Below are positions 14,213-35,036 of a stretch of 56,005 nt of DNA, piece by piece. The DNA is from Streptomyces hainanensis (GTDB lineage: Bacteria > Actinomycetota > Actinomycetes > Streptomycetales > Streptomycetaceae). A model generated the notes under the pieces. That model was given only the letters and a program-made list of their open reading frames with translations, was not told the origin of the DNA and ran no database searches. The number at the start of each line of letters is the position of its first letter. Position 1 is the stretch's first letter. The position numbers and the translations under genes are program-made. Location of the stretch: assembly GCF_004348415.1 (NCBI RefSeq), contig NZ_SMKI01000002.1:1-56005 (forward strand). Direction: 5' to 3'.

Positions 14213-15913
14213 ATGGACGCTGACGCCATCTCGGCGGGCCGCGCACGTTGGCAGGCCCGCTTCGAGGCGTCCCGGATCCGGGACGCCGACTTCACCACGC
14301 TCTCCGGGGACCCCGTCGAGCCCGTGTACGGCCCTCGCCCGGGCGACACCTACGAGGGTTTCGAGCGCATCGGCTGGCCTGGCGAGTTCCCCTACACCCG
14401 CGGCCTGTACGCCTCCGGCTACCGGGGCAGGGCCTGGACGATCCGCCAGTTCGCCGGCTTCGGGAACGCGGCGCAGACCAACGAGCGCTACCGCTCCATC
14501 CTCGCCAACGGCGGCGGTGGGCTCTCCGTGGCCTTCGACATGCCGACGCTGATGGGCCGGGACTCCGACGACCCGCGCTCGCTCGGCGAGGTCGGCCACT
14601 GCGGCGTCGCCATCGACTCGGCCGCCGACATGGACATACTGTTCGGCGGCATCCCGCTGGGCGAGACCACCACCTCCATGACCATCAGCGGCCCCGCCGT
14701 GCCCCTCTTCTGCATGTACGTCGTCGCGGCCGAGCGCCAGGGCGTCGACCCCGGCACGCTCAACGGCACGCTCCAGACCGACATCTTCAAGGAGTACATC
14801 GCCCAGAAGGAGTGGCTCTTCGAGCCCGAGCCGCACCTGCGGCTCATCGGCGACCTGATGGAGTACTGCGTCCGGCACATCCCGGCCTACAAGCCGCTCT
14901 CCGTCTCCGGCTACCACATCCGGGAGGCCGGCTCCACGGCGGCGCAGGAGCTGGCCTTCACCCTCGCCGACGGCTTCGGCTACGTCGAGCTCGGGCTCTC
15001 CCGCGGCCTGGACGTCAACACCTTCGCGCCCGGGCTCTCGTTCTTCTTCGACGCGCACGTCGACTTCTTCGAGGAGATCGCCAAGTTCCGCGCCGCGCGC
15101 CGGATCTGGGCCCGCTGGATGCGCGACGTCTACGACGCCACCAGCGAGCGCGCCCAGTGGCTGCGCTTCCACACCCAGACCGCCGGCGTCTCGCTGACCG
15201 CGCAGCAGCCGTACAACAACGTGGTGCGCACCGCCGTCGAGGCGCTGTCCGCCGTGCTCGGCGGCACCAACTCGCTGCACACCAACGCGCTGGACGAGAC
15301 CCTCGCCCTGCCGAGCGAGCAGGCCGCCGAGATCGCGTTGCGCACCCAGCAGGTGCTGATGGAGGAGACGGGCGTCGCCAACGTCGCCGACCCGCTGGGC
15401 GGCTCCTGGTACGTCGAGCAGCTGACCGACCGGATCGAGGCCGACGCGGAGAAGATCTTCGACCGGATCAGGGAGCTCGGCGCCCGCGCCGTGCCGGACG
15501 GGCAGCACCCGATCGGGCCGATCACCTCGGGGCTGCTGGCCGGCATCGAGGACGGCTGGTTCACCGGGCTCACCGCCGACGCCGCCTTCCGCTACCAGCA
15601 GTCGCTGGAGAAGGGCGAGAAGAAGGTCGTCGGCGTCAACTGCCACCCCGGTTCCGTCACCGGCGACCTGGAGATCCTGCGGGTCAGCCACGAGGTGGAG
15701 CGCGAGCAGTCCCGCGTGCTGGGCGAGCGCCGCGCCGCCCGCGACGAGGCGGCGGTCCGCGCCGGCCTCGCCGCCCTCGTGGACGCGGCGCGGAGCGACC
15801 GCAACATGATCGAACCCATGCTGACCGCCGTCCGCGCGGAGGCCACCCTGGGCGAGATCTGCGACGCGCTGCGGGCCGAGTGGGGCGTGTACGTGGAGCC
15901 GGCCGGCTTCTGA
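14213..15913 (+). CDS. icmA: Isobutyryl-CoA mutase large subunit
   Basis: The 566-aa protein matches the coenzyme-B12-dependent acyl-CoA mutase large subunit and has the same length, as I recall it, as S. cinnamonensis IcmA. It has 'YATGYRG'-type substrate-barrel motifs ('[19 protein letters not shown]', about 64-82), '[20 protein letters not shown]', and a run ending '[20 protein letters not shown]'. It lacks the C-terminal B12-binding domain, which in this system is the separate IcmB. The enzyme interconverts isobutyryl-CoA and n-butyryl-CoA, linking valine catabolism to butyrate units for fatty acids and polyketides. No icmB is in the window, so it must lie elsewhere. It is preceded by the 14182 dyad and followed by a clear terminator. 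Confidence 0.9.
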
Positions 15914-15943: not shown

Positions 15944-15969
15944 CCCGCGCGCGAGTTATTGCGCGCGGG
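15944..15969 (+). terminator. Terminator hairpin after icmA
   Basis: CCCGCGCGC (15944-15952) pairs perfectly with GCGCGCGGG (15961-15969) around an 8-nt AT-rich loop and is followed by TTT. It starts 31 nt after the icmA stop. Confidence 0.75.
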
Positions 15970-15986: not shown

Positions 15987-16000
15987 TGGGAGCGCTCCCA
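15987..16000. promoter_or_regulatory. CebR box upstream of the SGNH hydrolase
   Basis: TGGGAGCGCTCCCA is an exact copy of the palindromic operator known for CebR, the cellobiose-responsive LacI-family repressor of Streptomyces cellulose utilisation. It lies 45 bp before the hydrolase ATG, in promoter position. This predicts induction by cello-oligosaccharides. The cebR gene itself is not in the window. Confidence 0.8.
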
Positions 16001-16044
16001 TCGCTCGCTCCCATCCATGCCACTCCCGATGAAGGGACCCCCAC

Positions 16045-16776
16045 ATGGCAAGCAGGAGACAGTTACTCGCCGGCGCCATCGCCCTCGCCGTCGCCCCCAC
16101 CGCGATCGGCGCCACCACCGCCCACGCCGCGTCGTCCGACACCGGGGCCGCCGCAGGCGTGCGGGTGATGCCGCTCGGCGACTCGATCACCGACGGCTTC
16201 AACGTGCCGGGCGGCTACCGCATCGGGCTGTGGGAGCGGCTGGTGGCCGGCGGCCAGACGGTCGACTTCGTCGGCTCGATGTCCAACGGCCCGGGCAACC
16301 TCGGCGACCGCGACCACGAGGGCCACTCCGGCTGGACGATCGCCGGGATCGACGCCAACGTGTCCCGCTGGCTCACCACCTACCAGCCGCAGACGATCCT
16401 GCTGCACATCGGCACCAACGACATCTACGGCTCCGACCCGGGCGGCGCCCCGGCCAGGCTCCGCACCCTCGTCAACCGCATCACCAGCCAGCTGCCCCAG
16501 GCGTACCTGTTCCTGGCCACCATCACCCCGCTGCCGGCCTTCGACGCCGGCGTGCGGGCGTTCAACGCGGCCGTCCCCGGCATCGTCCGGGACCAGGCCA
16601 ACGCCGGCCGCCGGGTCCATCTGGTCGACATGTACGCGGCGTTGACCAACGCCGACATCGCCGACGGCGTGCACCCCAACGCCACCGGCTACAACAAGAT
16701 GGCCGCCGCCTGGTACAACGCGCTGCGATCCGTACCCGGCGCCACCGGCGCCGGCGCGCTGACGAACGCGGCGTAG
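16045..16776 (+). CDS. Secreted SGNH/GDSL esterase (CE3-like), TTA-containing
   Basis: The 243-aa protein has a signal peptide (about 1-28, ending 'AHA') with an Arg-Arg near the start. SGNH blocks are 'PLGDSITDG' (nucleophile Ser47), 'GSMSNGPG', 'HIGTNDIYG' (121-129) and 'ADGVHPNATG' with Asp207-x-x-His210. The layout resembles carbohydrate esterase family 3 acetyl-xylan esterases, which remove acetyl groups from plant polysaccharides. A CebR box upstream supports a role in lignocellulose use. Codon 7 (16063-16065) is the rare TTA, so translation should depend on the bldA tRNA and be tied to development. No cellulose-binding module is attached. Confidence 0.88.
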   Translation: MASRRQLLAGAIALAVAPTAIGATTAHAASSDTGAAAGVRVMPLGDSITDGFNVPGGYRIGLWERLVAGGQTVDFVGSMSNGPGNLGDRDHEGHSGWTIAGIDANVSRWLTTYQPQTILLHIGTNDIYGSDPGGAPARLRTLVNRITSQLPQAYLFLATITPLPAFDAGVRAFNAAVPGIVRDQANAGRRVHLVDMYAALTNADIADGVHPNATGYNKMAAAWYNALRSVPGATGAGALTNAA

Positions 16777-16838: not shown

Positions 16839-16902
16839 CGCATGGCCGCGAGAGTCGGGGTCACCCGGCGCCGGGTCCGTTGGCGGGTGCCGCTATCGCC
16901 AT
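16793..16902 (-). pseudogene. Remnant of the 3' end of a Nudix hydrolase gene
   Basis: Read on the minus strand, this stretch encodes a tail ending 'RANEARCLESGHQPW' and a stop at 16793. It is nearly the same as the C-terminus of the intact Nudix protein at 18696 ('KANEARYLESGHQPW'), preceded by the related 'RTRRR' versus 'RIRRR'. The catalytic part is missing, so this is a decayed gene end. It lies between the SGNH gene and the toxin gene and marks the left edge of the repeat-bounded module. Confidence 0.6.
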
Positions 16903-16946
16903 GGGGGTGTGGACGCCCCAGCGGTCTCGCGTCCGCGTCGAGGCTG

Positions 16947-17297
16947 GTGTATGTCGCCCAGTGGCTCGACGGGCTGTCCGACAAGCACGTCGGAAAGGTC
17001 GACGATGCCTCGGGCCTGCTGGCTCAGCTCGGCCCGGCGATACCCATGGCCCTCGCCCGGCCTCTGCGGGACGGGGTCTGGGAGCTGCGGCTGACGCTCG
17101 GCGACGTCGACGCGCGCATCACCTACTGGATGGCGCCGGACCGCCGGATTGTTTTCCTGACGTGGTTTCGCAAGACCCGTCAGCACGAGGAGAAGCAGAT
17201 CACCCGCGCGGTCCTCGCCCGTAAGCAGTGCGAGGCCGAACACGACCCGGCCGACGCCGACTTCCATCGGAGCAGACTCGAAGGAGGGACACCATGA
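16947..17297 (+). CDS. HigB/RelE-like (phage Gp49-type) toxin
   Basis: The protein of about 116 aa belongs to the Gp49/HigB branch of the RelE superfamily. 'VAQWLDGLSDKHVGKV' opens the fold, followed by 'LARPLRDGVWELRLTLGD', 'ARITYWMAPDRRIVFLTWF' and 'RKTRQHEEKQITRAV', the diagnostic F-x-K-K/R-x-x-x block. Members cleave ribosome-bound mRNA. The start is uncertain: GTG at 16947 fits the fold, while GTG at 16887 would add 20 residues running into the Nudix remnant. It is followed in an ATGA overlap by an XRE antitoxin, the toxin-first order typical of HigBA. The C-terminal 20 residues beyond the helix are extra. Confidence 0.75.
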   Translation: MYVAQWLDGLSDKHVGKVDDASGLLAQLGPAIPMALARPLRDGVWELRLTLGDVDARITYWMAPDRRIVFLTWFRKTRQHEEKQITRAVLARKQCEAEHDPADADFHRSRLEGGTP

Positions 17298-17641
17298 GTG
17301 GTCACACCAGGACGAAGGCCCGGCGCGGGAAGCGCATCCGGGGCGATTACCCCGACTCCGAGGAGCGTGCGCAGGAGCGGCGGGAGAATCCGCTGGCCAT
17401 GGCACTCGCCGTCGTCGTCTACAACCGCCGGAAGGAGCTCGGCCGGACCCAGGCCGAGGCCGCCGAGAGGTGCGGCCTGGATCAGGCGAAGATCTCCCGT
17501 ATCGAAGGCAGCGACGCCGTCCCCACTCTCCCACTGCTGTACAAGCTGTCCAGGGGCCTCGACGCGGCCCTGCGCATCGACATCGACGTCGTCGACGACG
17601 AGCCGAAGATCACGCTGACCCCACACGGCGCTGCCGCGTAG
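17294..17641 (+). CDS. XRE-family antitoxin (HigA-like)
   Basis: The 115-aa protein has a basic N-terminus and a Cro/CI helix-turn-helix at about 38-95: 'MALAVVVYNRRKELGRTQAE', recognition part 'CGLDQAKISRIEGSD', and 'TLPLLYKLSRGLDAALRI'. The short C-terminal tail ('EPKITLTPH') follows the pattern of HigA-type antitoxins of Gp49 toxins. It would inhibit the upstream toxin and repress the operon. The ATG at 17294 overlaps the toxin stop (ATGA). Confidence 0.85.
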   Translation: MSGHTRTKARRGKRIRGDYPDSEERAQERRENPLAMALAVVVYNRRKELGRTQAEAAERCGLDQAKISRIEGSDAVPTLPLLYKLSRGLDAALRIDIDVVDDEPKITLTPHGAAA

Positions 17642-17692
17642 CGTCCTGCGGCCACCGCGGTGGAGTGAGGGTGAGGTCGCTGGCGACGACGT

Positions 17693-18391
17693 TCAGCCTC
17701 CTCGGACTCCCCAGACGAACAGGGTGCCCGTGCGCCGACTTCCCGAGGGCGGGGCGAGCACGGACGCCGACACGTCCACGTAGCCGTGTTCCTTGAGCGT
17801 CAGCATCCACACATCGGGTTCGTAGTCCCACCGCTTGACGACGGCGGGGTCCTCTTCGGGCCCGCGCGGGATGTATGACGCCTGGCAGCCGTAGCACCCT
17901 TCAACCGGGGGCCGCTGGGAGAAGGCGAACACTCCACCTGGCTTGAGTTTCGCGTGAACGTTCGGCAGCAGCAGGGTGGGGTCGGTGAACCAGGCAGCGC
18001 CGAACACGCTGTAGATCGCATCGAAGATCGTGACCGTGCCTTCGAGGTAGGTGAGGGCATCGGCCTGGTGGAGTTCCATCCCGTCCACGCCCGGCCACCG
18101 TTCGTGTGACTTGTCGAGCTGCTGGGCGGAGAGGTCGACCCCTACGGCCTTGGTGCCGAGCGTCGCGAGGTGAGCGGCGTTCCCACCGGACCCGCACCCG
18201 AGGTCGAGCACGCTGTCTCCGGGGTTGAGGCTGAGCACGTCGGCCCCCGGGCCGTGGTCGGGGTACTGGGTCCAGTTGAACCACGTGGTGTCGCCCTCGG
18301 CGTTGGTCTTCCGCCGGTGGGGCTTGCTCTGTGAATAGGTGTCCCATGCGGTGCTGCGAGGGTCAGTCACTACCTGTCCGTTCTCGTTCAC
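17693..18391 (-). CDS. Class I SAM-dependent methyltransferase
   Basis: The 232-aa enzyme has a Rossmann methyltransferase domain: motif I 'VLDLGCGSGGNAAHLA' (about 61-76), motif II Asp in 'AVGVDLSAQQLDKS', motif III 'LHQADALTYLEG', and motif IV-V 'FDAIYSVFGAAWF' with 'LKPGGVFAFSQRP'. The N-terminus 'TAWDTYSQSKPHRR' is shared with small actinomycete methyltransferases near phage-like or accessory genes. A cluster of Cys ('CYGCQ') follows motif V. The substrate is unknown. It converges with the HigA-like gene and lies inside the repeat-bounded module. The start may instead be the GTG a few codons in. Confidence 0.85.
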   Translation of the reverse strand: MNENGQVVTDPRSTAWDTYSQSKPHRRKTNAEGDTTWFNWTQYPDHGPGADVLSLNPGDSVLDLGCGSGGNAAHLATLGTKAVGVDLSAQQLDKSHERWPGVDGMELHQADALTYLEGTVTIFDAIYSVFGAAWFTDPTLLLPNVHAKLKPGGVFAFSQRPPVEGCYGCQASYIPRGPEEDPAVVKRWDYEPDVWMLTLKEHGYVDVSASVLAPPSGSRRTGTLFVWGVRGG

Positions 18392-18397
18392 GGCGAC

Positions 18398-18424
18398 AGC
18401 CGCCCGGCACGATACCGGGCGGCT
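18398..18424. terminator. Hairpin downstream of the truncated gene
   Basis: AGCCGCCCGG (18398-18407) and CCGGGCGGCT (18415-18424) form a perfect 10-bp stem with a 7-nt loop. On the minus strand it lies 30 nt past the stop of the truncated gene and just before the methyltransferase start. It was probably the terminator of that gene. Confidence 0.55.
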
Positions 18425-18454
18425 GAGGCTGTAGTCGTCCCGCTTGCGGCGGAG

Positions 18455-18679
18455 CTACTTGACAACGGGGCTGTCGGAGCAGCCCGCGTAGCTCTGGGTG
18501 CAGTCGGCCGCGCCGTTGACCGGCCAGAACTCCGGGTCCACGTCGAAGCCGGCCGATCGGATCATCTCGGCTGTCCGACGCATCGCGGCCCGTCCCTCGG
18601 CGGGGTTGTGGCTGTTGCCGCGGTCGGGGACGTGGTGGATGAATCCGGAGCCGAGCGCCTCACAGAACTCGGCGTAGTG
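18455..18679 (-). pseudogene. 5'-truncated small gene (C-terminal 74 codons)
   Basis: On the minus strand an open frame runs from the right repeat edge to a TAG at 18455-18457. Its product contains 'HYAEFCEALGSGFIHHVPD', 'NPAEGRAAMRRTAEMI' and 'EFWPVNGAADCTQSYAGCS', with two Cys near the end. The even, constrained composition looks like a real protein end. There is no start codon with a ribosome-binding site: the frame enters directly from the repeat that forms the Nudix 3' end. I take it as the tail of a gene whose 5' part was lost when the repeat was joined here. The function is unknown. Confidence 0.55.
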
Positions 18680-18681
18680 CG

Positions 18682-18741
18682 GGGTCCTGGGTGGGTCACC
18701 ATGGTTGGTGCCCTGACTCCAGGTAGCGGGCCTCGTTCGCC
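18682..18741. repeat. 60-bp direct repeat, copy B
   Basis: This is the partner of 16779-16838, and here it is part of an intact Nudix gene (last 15 codons plus 14 bp downstream). Both copies are also preceded by AAC-K-CGGCGTAG within a few bases, which may mark the recombination junction. Confidence 0.8.
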
Positions 18742-33455: not shown

Positions 33456-35036
33456 ATGGCAACTCACAGTTGGTTACGACGTGCCGCCGTCTCGGCCGCC
33501 GTGTTGGGTGCGTGTCTCGTGGCGGCGCCCGCGGCGCCCGCGGCGCCCGCGGCGCCCGCGGCGCCCGCGGCGCCGGCGGTGGGCGCCGACCGCGCCGACC
33601 GCGGCGACCCGCTCCGGCAGTACTACGGGCAGGACCTCGACTGGCACGGCTGCGCGCTCGGGCCCGACGACGTGACCGGGCGGGAGCTCGACGACGCGGG
33701 GGCCGGTTGCGCGGAGCTCACCGTGCCGCTCGACTACGCCGCGCCGCGCGGCAGGACCATCACCGTCGCGCTGTCCCGGCTCCCCGCCACCGACCGCGAG
33801 CACCGCGTCGGCGCGCTGTTCCTCAACGACGGGGGTCCCGGCGGGGCGGGCCTCGACATGCCGCTCCGCATCGCCGCCGACCTGGGGGACGTCGCCGAGC
33901 GCTTCGACCTGATCGGCATGGACCCGCGGTTCGTCGGCCGTTCCACGCCGCTCGACTGCGGCTGGGACATCGGCACCGGCCTCTACTCCGCGGGCCCCGA
34001 CCGGGCCTCGTTCGCCCGGGCCGCCGCCCGCGCCCACGACCTGGCCGGGCGGTGCCGGCGGACCAACGGCGACGTGCTGCCGTACGTCACCACCCGCAAC
34101 ACCGCCCGCGACATGGACGTGCTGCGCGGCGCCCTGGGCGAGGACCGGATCTCCTACCTCGGCTACTCCTACGGCTCCTACCTCGGCGAGGTCTACACCA
34201 CGCTCTTCCCCGGCCGGACCGACCGGATGGTGCTGGACGGCGTGATAGACCCGGCGCGCTACCGGCAGACGCTGCTCCAGGACTCGGAGGTCGCCAACGA
34301 GCGCGCGCTGCGCGGCTGGGCGGCGTGGGCGGCCGAGCGGGACGACATCTACGGCCTGGGCGGCAGCCGGGAGGCGGTGCTGGCCACCGTGGACCGGATC
34401 GACGCCGCCGCGGCCGAGGCGCCGGTGCGGGTGGGGGAGTACCGGCTCGACGCGCACCTGCTGCCGATCATCCTGATCAGCGGTCTCGGCAGCGACCTGG
34501 ACGGGCCGCGGGCCTCGCTCGCCGAGACCGTGGCGCTGCTGGCGCGCGTCGTCGAGGGGGAGGCGGCCGAGCCCACCCCGGCGCAGGCGGAGCAACTGGC
34601 GTTCCTGACCACCGAGGTCGGCTCGCGGTACGCGAGCGCGCAGCTGGCGATCCTCTGCGGGGACGTCGCCGAGCGGCGCGGCCTCGGCACCTACTGGCGG
34701 GACATCGAGGCCGGCAGGAGCACGAACCCGTTCGCCGCGCCCGTCGTCTCCAACGTCAACGCCTGCGAGTTCTGGAGCCGCCCGGCCGAGGCGCCGACGG
34801 TGGTGGGCGGCGACGTGCCGGCGCTGCTGGTGGCCGCCACCGGTGACCCCCGCACGACGTACTCGGGGACCGAGGCGGTGCGCGAGCTGTGGCCGTCCTC
34901 CCGGCTCGTCACCCTGGACGGCGCCGCCCACCACGGCGTCTACGGCGAGTACGGCAGCGCCTGCGTGGACGAGCGGGTCAACGCCTACCTGGCCAGCGGG
35001 CGGCTGCCGGCCGCCGACGTGACCTGCCTGCCATAG
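33456..35036 (+). CDS. Secreted alpha/beta-hydrolase, tripeptidyl-aminopeptidase-like
   Basis: The 526-aa protein begins with a signal peptide ('RAAVSAAVLGACLVAAPA') that runs into a perfect Ala-Ala-Pro repeat encoded by a 9-bp tandem repeat (about 33523-33573). The hydrolase fold has the oxyanion segment 'LFLNDGGPGGAGLDM', nucleophile elbow 'YLGYSYGSYLGEVY' (G-Y-S-Y-G), acid region 'LLVAATGDPRTTY' and catalytic His in 'LDGAAHHGVY'. This matches the streptomycete Slp/tripeptidyl aminopeptidase family (abhydrolase_1 plus TAP C-terminal domain), which trims tripeptides outside the cell. The ATG at 33456 is preferred over the GTG 9 nt upstream. Confidence 0.9.
   Translation: MATHSWLRRAAVSAAVLGACLVAAPAAPAAPAAPAAPAAPAVGADRADRGDPLRQYYGQDLDWHGCALGPDDVTGRELDDAGAGCAELTVPLDYAAPRGRTITVALSRLPATDREHRVGALFLNDGGPGGAGLDMPLRIAADLGDVAERFDLIGMDPRFVGRSTPLDCGWDIGTGLYSAGPDRASFARAAARAHDLAGRCRRTNGDVLPYVTTRNTARDMDVLRGALGEDRISYLGYSYGSYLGEVYTTLFPGRTDRMVLDGVIDPARYRQTLLQDSEVANERALRGWAAWAAERDDIYGLGGSREAVLATVDRIDAAAAEAPVRVGEYRLDAHLLPIILISGLGSDLDGPRASLAETVALLARVVEGEAAEPTPAQAEQLAFLTTEVGSRYASAQLAILCGDVAERRGLGTYWRDIEAGRSTNPFAAPVVSNVNACEFWSRPAEAPTVVGGDVPALLVAATGDPRTTYSGTEAVRELWPSSRLVTLDGAAHHGVYGEYGSACVDERVNAYLASGRLPAADVTCLP

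Follow-up and report, generated by a model that had tools for sequence, protein, structure and literature searches.

This study analyzed a 56,005-nucleotide stretch of the Streptomyces hainanensis genome (hereafter the window), in which a gene for an exported esterase is preceded by a palindrome matching the CebR operator and carries a TTA codon within its signal peptide sequence. The features of the locus are listed in Table 1. The results confirmed both elements of the original prediction, namely the exact palindrome TGGGAGCGCTCCCA at position 15987 and the TTA at codon 7, and the exported hydrolase that it had named was borne out by the signal peptide, the SGNH blocks, the PF13472 match, and the match to the solved structure 2vpt.

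Table 1. Features of the esterase locus, in window coordinates
Feature	Position	Strand	Basis and remarks
Methylmalonyl-CoA mutase-type gene, 566 aa, upstream of the esterase	14213..15913	+	PF01642, E 3.8e-203; gene order shared with Streptomyces sp. 8K308
Inverted repeat, 9-bp GC stem and 8-nt loop, in the interval between mutase gene and box	15944..15969	+	Read from the sequence; stem kept in 8K308
CebR operator, exact 14-bp palindrome TGGGAGCGCTCCCA	15987..16000		Consensus in PMC5332605; kept in 8K308
Extra GCTCCCA half-site just 3′ of the box	16007..16013	+	Not in 8K308
GAAGGGA, probable ribosome binding site	16031..16037	+	Read from the sequence
Exported SGNH/GDSL esterase, CE3-like, 243 aa	16045..16776	+	PF13472, E 4e-19; 2vpt, E 1.2e-41; motifs
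TTA leucine codon, codon 7 of the esterase	16063..16065	+	In a twin-arginine-like signal peptide (SRRQLLAG, by eye); kept in 8K308

The signal peptide of the esterase, delimited by eye, is MASRRQLLAGAIALAVAPTAIGATTAHA, and the gene opens with the codons ATG GCA AGC AGG AGA CAG TTA. An in-frame TGA lies five codons 5′ of the ATG, and no other in-frame start occurs until codon 39, past the signal peptide; the TTA is therefore not an artefact of start choice, and a misplaced start was ruled out. TTA occurs in 2 of the 48 genes called in the window. The third-position GC content of the esterase is 0.97, which ruled out a foreign gene. Upstream, the inverted repeat probably marks the end of the mutase transcript. 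A consensus scan of the mutase-esterase intergenic region for sigma-70 promoters and terminators found nothing and thus did not report this repeat.

The SGNH blocks of the esterase comprise GDS at residue 45, GTND at residue 123, and DGVHP at residue 207. The best solved structure, 2vpt, matched residues 36-227 with the catalytic blocks aligned. The entry is named a 'lipolytic enzyme', and we take it to be the clostridial CtCes3-1 of carbohydrate esterase family CE3. The two proteins are alike in the aligned catalytic blocks but belong to different organisms under different regulation, and the activity of the esterase of this study is predicted from its sequence. Because the esterase resembles 2vpt, an acetylated plant polysaccharide, such as acetylated xylan, is a fair guess for its substrate. 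Against the NCBIfam acetylxylan esterase model AcxylEst_AxeA1, the esterase scored 30.1 bits, far below the curated cut-off of 700.

The box stands 45-58 nt 5′ of the esterase ATG and is the sole match in the window at up to two mismatches. At the same threshold, shuffled versions of the window yielded a mean of 0.64 matches, and the window count is unremarkable alone; the significance of the box rests instead on whole-genome counts. The genome of the strain (7.99 Mb in 951 contigs) contains 15 exact boxes, and 27 boxes at up to one mismatch compared with 2 for a reversed control pattern. Twelve further genomes of the genus contained 93 exact boxes, compared with 0 control matches. A chance match was ruled out by this near-zero reversed-pattern control. 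The claim that the palindrome is the CebR operator agrees with the published CebR site as given in passages of PMC5332605, which list CebR boxes in Streptomyces scabiei, and of PMC4898821, in which the same motif precedes genes induced on cellulose.

The genes beside the other boxes in the strain were then identified by family. On contig C393 (L173), a box lies between a LacI-family gene (PF00356) and a gene for a solute-binding lipoprotein (PF13416), followed by two permease genes (PF00528); by family membership, these CebR-like and CebEFG-like genes appear to form a CebR-CebEFG arrangement. Eleven further genes scanned beside exact boxes encode two GH6, one LPMO10, one GH9, two GH5, and two GH48 proteins, a GDSL esterase bearing a CBM2 domain, a CBM2 protein with a Sortilin-type match, and a GHL10 protein. 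Most other boxes examined in this genome precede cellulases or an LPMO. The boxes on C9, C104, and C123 are without an evident cellulose gene, and an ABC-type protein, an unrecognised 183-aa open reading frame, and an MFS protein were found there; one boxed stretch also faces a second solute-binding protein (L272). The GDSL esterase with the CBM2 domain, a paralogue of the esterase in the window (L003; L270:4188-5264 on C107), has an exact CebR box and no TTA, and members of its 9-gene cluster in four other genomes (G104, G123, G065, and G009) do have TTA.

A search with ARAGORN identified a bldA-type tRNA-Leu with the anticodon TAA (UAA) at approximately 8495-8577 of C118, one of 7 long candidates with the anticodon read among 47 tRNA matches. 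The original prediction had held that TTA genes need the bldA tRNA. The tRNA itself is present in the genome, but the general rule is weakened by passages of PMC5133688, in which many S. clavuligerus TTA genes are bldA-independent.

Within the strain, three boxed genes carry a TTA inside their first seven codons, and a fourth such gene stands behind a 1-mismatch box; because of the three, the box regions of other genomes of the genus were examined. An exported-type gene was scored as boxed when it lay within 300 nt of an exact box, and a TTA was scored as early when it fell in codons 1-30. Genes were called, starts chosen, and signal peptides assigned by a simple script that treated boxed and control genes identically; its signal-peptide criterion also admits lipoproteins and membrane proteins, such as the MFS protein L271. 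The first set comprised the strain's own genome and 8 of the 12 searched genomes, with 75 of the 93 sites used; four genomes (G012, G015, G031, and G044) and 3 of the 10 sites of G091 were excluded. In these nine genomes, an early TTA was found in 18 of 81 boxed exported-type genes, compared with 9 of 168 other exported-type and 5 of 314 non-exported genes. The excess was replicated in nine further genomes under the same rules and with all 58 sites included, the corresponding counts being 22/60, 5/87, and 3/190 (p 2.4e-6 against the exported controls). Across all 18 genomes, the early TTA was present in 40/141 boxed exported-type, 14/255 other exported, and 8/504 non-exported genes. Beyond codon 30, TTA was rare in all three groups (3/141, 1/255, and 11/504, respectively).

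Genes counted in this manner are related across genomes. The family-resampled rate was 0.28 (0.17-0.43) for boxed genes and 0.05 (0.02-0.10) for controls, and an early TTA occurred in 15 of the 33 families having a boxed member, compared with 7 of 162 other families, although family sizes differ between the two groups. Boxed genes that were set aside, either lying more than 300 nt from the box or having no predicted signal, had an early TTA in 4 of 52 cases. At least three TTA-bearing control genes (L220, L312, and L348) closely follow a boxed gene and may belong to the same operon. One control region of the strain's own genome contains a 1-mismatch box, and the GH5 gene there, which bears a TTA, was counted as a control. 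The genes for CebR (0/15) and CebE (0/18) in these genomes contained no TTA at any position. The strongest new element of this analysis is that CebR-boxed genes have an excess of TTA in their signal peptides, which was replicated and which shifts in codon position.

Such an excess could arise from a generic 5′ codon ramp: in genes for highly expressed exported enzymes, rare or AT-rich codons would be preferred across the signal peptide to keep mRNA structure weak or early elongation slow, and TTA would simply be the most extreme of these codons, without any developmental control. We consider this explanation unlikely, although it accounts for several of the observations. Relative to gene bodies, the 5′ regions of boxed exported-type genes were enriched not only in TTA (63-fold) but also in AGA (18-fold), AAA (12-fold), AAT (7.6-fold), and TCA (7-fold), and CGA was likewise enriched in codons 2-30; the opening codons of the esterase itself fit this pattern. 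Compared with other exported genes, the boxed genes showed excesses of TTA (3.6-fold), TCA (3.0-fold), AAA (2.6-fold), AAT (6.2-fold), and ATT (5.0-fold), the last two values resting on 5 codons each. The third-position AT content was also higher in boxed exported-type genes than in other exported genes (0.171 versus 0.124). A codon ramp explains the early TTA partly.

As a whole explanation, AT-rich 5′ ends were rejected, being real but, as we read it, insufficient in view of the leucine ratios, the A/T-ending codons, and the chitinases. Counted per leucine, the excess of TTA in boxed genes amounted to 3.8-fold odds (p 5e-6). Measured against CTT and CTA together, the difference between boxed and other exported genes was weak (2.3-fold, p 0.02). 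The 40 TTA codons seen compare with 3-4 expected from TTG combined with CTA or CTT. In addition, the third-position AT content of the other codons was equal in boxed genes with TTA (0.172) and without it (0.171), which argues against the ramp. The DasR regulon was considered as a control, but its exact 12-mer yielded 1 or 0 sites per genome, 5 in total compared with 3 for the reversed control; because these sites were too few, GH18 chitinases were used instead. Among 23 GH18 loci from 8 of the same genomes, one (L368) was dropped for lack of a callable gene, and the remainder had TTA in 0 of 22 genes and 0 of 109 leucines, compared with 31 of 75 genes and 31 of 420 leucines for the boxed genes in this comparison. 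The chitinases equalled the boxed genes in third-position AT content (0.183 versus 0.182) and had AGA more frequently, but because they form few families, this control is suggestive and not final.

We further investigated another actinobacterial family (f17), represented by six genomes from six genera, in which 67 of 70 sites were counted; four of these genomes (G407, G505, G514, and G495) contain 11-15 exact CebR boxes each. An early TTA was found in 8 of 44 boxed exported-type genes, compared with 0 of 55 exported and 0 of 127 non-exported genes (0/182 controls), and in 1 of 29 genes set aside for lying more than 300 nt from the box or having no predicted signal. One of the eight TTA genes (L436) encodes a solute-binding protein, and the sparing of the importer is therefore seen only in the first genus. 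The recurrence of the TTA excess in this family is also a point in favour of the codon ramp. According to passages of PMC4255298, TTA in streptomycetes is biased to gene starts, and outside Streptomycineae it has no such bias, and the developmental use of bldA may not extend there. Either the TTA pattern is independent of bldA in its developmental role, or a UUA-reading tRNA gates genes more widely than has been assumed.

The relatives of the esterase bear on a second alternative, namely that the TTA reflects neutral drift or is a relic of horizontal transfer without any effect, which we regard as improbable. The nearest relative found, in Streptomyces sp. 8K308, has 87% protein identity, and gene order, box, and TTA are all kept there whereas the box-to-start spacer has diverged; the TTA was kept although codon 5 changed, which argues against drift. 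The original prediction had named the absence of TTA in close relatives as evidence that would count against it, and on this point the outcome was mixed: the codon is kept in 8K308, absent in CNH099 (L066), and found elsewhere at other positions. The box is kept and the TTA absent in six relatives (L021, L052, L062, L065, L070, and L285). Among the best 80 named relatives, 64 were not Streptomyces; no exact box was found within up to 400 nt upstream of these 64 (approximately 120 nt only for L079), and one of them (L077) had an early TTA.

The tree of the esterase family comprised 52 distinct sequences, 40 of them from the strain's own genus. In this CE3-like family, TTA occupies six signal-peptide columns (codons 2, 4, 7, 11, 14, and 17), which implies at least six gains if the alignment holds. 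The codon was also lost, L062 and L021 lying without TTA within the codon-14 group. Among the same-genus sequences, TTA was present in 10 of 16 with an exact box within 450 nt and in 2 of 24 without one, in a comparison that ignores the tree and from which only identical proteins were removed. The varying position and the losses would suit drift, as would a genus survey, in passages of which most TTA codons are poorly conserved (PMC10327506). The replication of the excess over controls in a second set of genomes argues against drift, and the high third-position GC content of the esterase argues against both drift and transfer. It is very improbable that the box is bound by another LacI-family regulator with an inducer other than cellobiose, since, although a second LacI-family gene (L177:3182-4228) lies approximately 1.7 kb from the nearer of the two exact boxes on C104, the sequence is identical to the published CebR site and is found in this genome both between the CebR-like and CebE-like genes and ahead of cellulases.

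We consider it reasonably probable that the esterase is an ordinary CebR regulon member that is subject to a further condition at translation, and both inputs are likely to control it. Binding by CebR, induction by cellobiose, dependence on bldA, and the substrate are what we infer from the sequence. In the proposed mechanism, the LacI-type repressor CebR would occupy the box and block transcription without cellobiose, and cellobiose imported through CebEFG would release it. The resulting mRNA would be readable past codon 7 only with charged tRNA-Leu(UAA), the bldA product; without it, ribosomes would stall in the signal peptide and no exported esterase would be formed. Once exported, the enzyme would remove acetyl groups from extracellular plant polysaccharide, alongside the cellulases and the LPMO of the regulon. 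The original prediction had inferred further that the esterase is made only in differentiating mycelium, which goes beyond what a sequence can show.

On a broader scale, we propose tentatively, and with somewhat less than an even chance of being right, that mycelial actinobacteria repeatedly equip the signal peptides of plant-wall enzymes under CebR control with TTA codons but leave CebR and CebE free of them (in the sampled Streptomyces). In such a two-input gate, cellobiose would allow transcription of the costly exported enzymes and the UUA-reading tRNA their translation; the gate would be older or wider than Streptomyces (on the basis of one other family) and would re-form at other codons as existing instances are lost. 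If this gate is real, plant-biomass feeding would be linked to the developmental clock, late or poor production of some secreted enzymes in culture could find an explanation, and one simple codon-swap prediction would cover many genes. If only a codon ramp is at work, the pattern would be a warning against reading every TTA as bldA control.

Parts of this arrangement have precedents. In S. halstedii JM8, the genes for an endoglucanase and a cellulose-binding protein are reportedly 'co-regulated by a TTA codon', in the words of the title of Garda et al. 1997, and according to that title they resemble the esterase in the TTA control of cellulose genes. The pairing of box and TTA is not unique to the esterase, having been published for two S. 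scabiei cellulose genes: in passages of PMC5332605, celS2 (scab21081) and scab51081 are exported cellulose genes with an exact box upstream and an early TTA (at nucleotides 22 and 13, respectively), and bldA control is proposed. Those genes encode an LPMO and a GH5 protein, whereas the gene analyzed here encodes a CE3-like esterase in another strain and is accompanied by comparative counts. The same passages propose double CebR-bldA control for txtR, which shares CebR control and a TTA with the esterase but is a regulator gene with its TTA at nucleotide 621 and an imperfect box, and they cite a correlation of box number with cellulose hydrolysis in Streptomyces. In Table 2 of PMC4255298, TTA is frequent in the orthologues of celB and celS2 (6/13 and 7/14 genomes, respectively), labelled cellulose utilisation; these orthologues share frequent TTA with the boxed genes, and the passages of that paper contain no CebR box analysis. 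A literature search, outside of which most subscription papers lay, gave no paper that tallies TTA over exported genes with a CebR box.

Several further observations were made beside these results. Just behind the esterase, positions 16944-17638 encode a Gp49-like protein (PF05973) and, directly after it, an HTH_3 protein, which together resemble a HigBA-type toxin-antitoxin pair; window positions 16900-18692 had no blastn match in the 6.7-kb locus of 8K308. A second exported hydrolase in the window (33456-35033; alpha/beta fold with a TAP-like C-terminal domain) also has TTA as codon 7, and no box at up to two mismatches was found within 350 nt upstream of it. An exported GH2-type protein of approximately 1030 aa has TTA as codon 8 in three genomes (L235:798-3902, L327:4197-7301, and L337:4129-7215), and the same search upstream of these three genes gave no box either. 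A second esterase family shows the pairing of box and codon: a CE2-type esterase (L353:2860-3975, genome G108) has an exact CebR box and TTA as codon 7.
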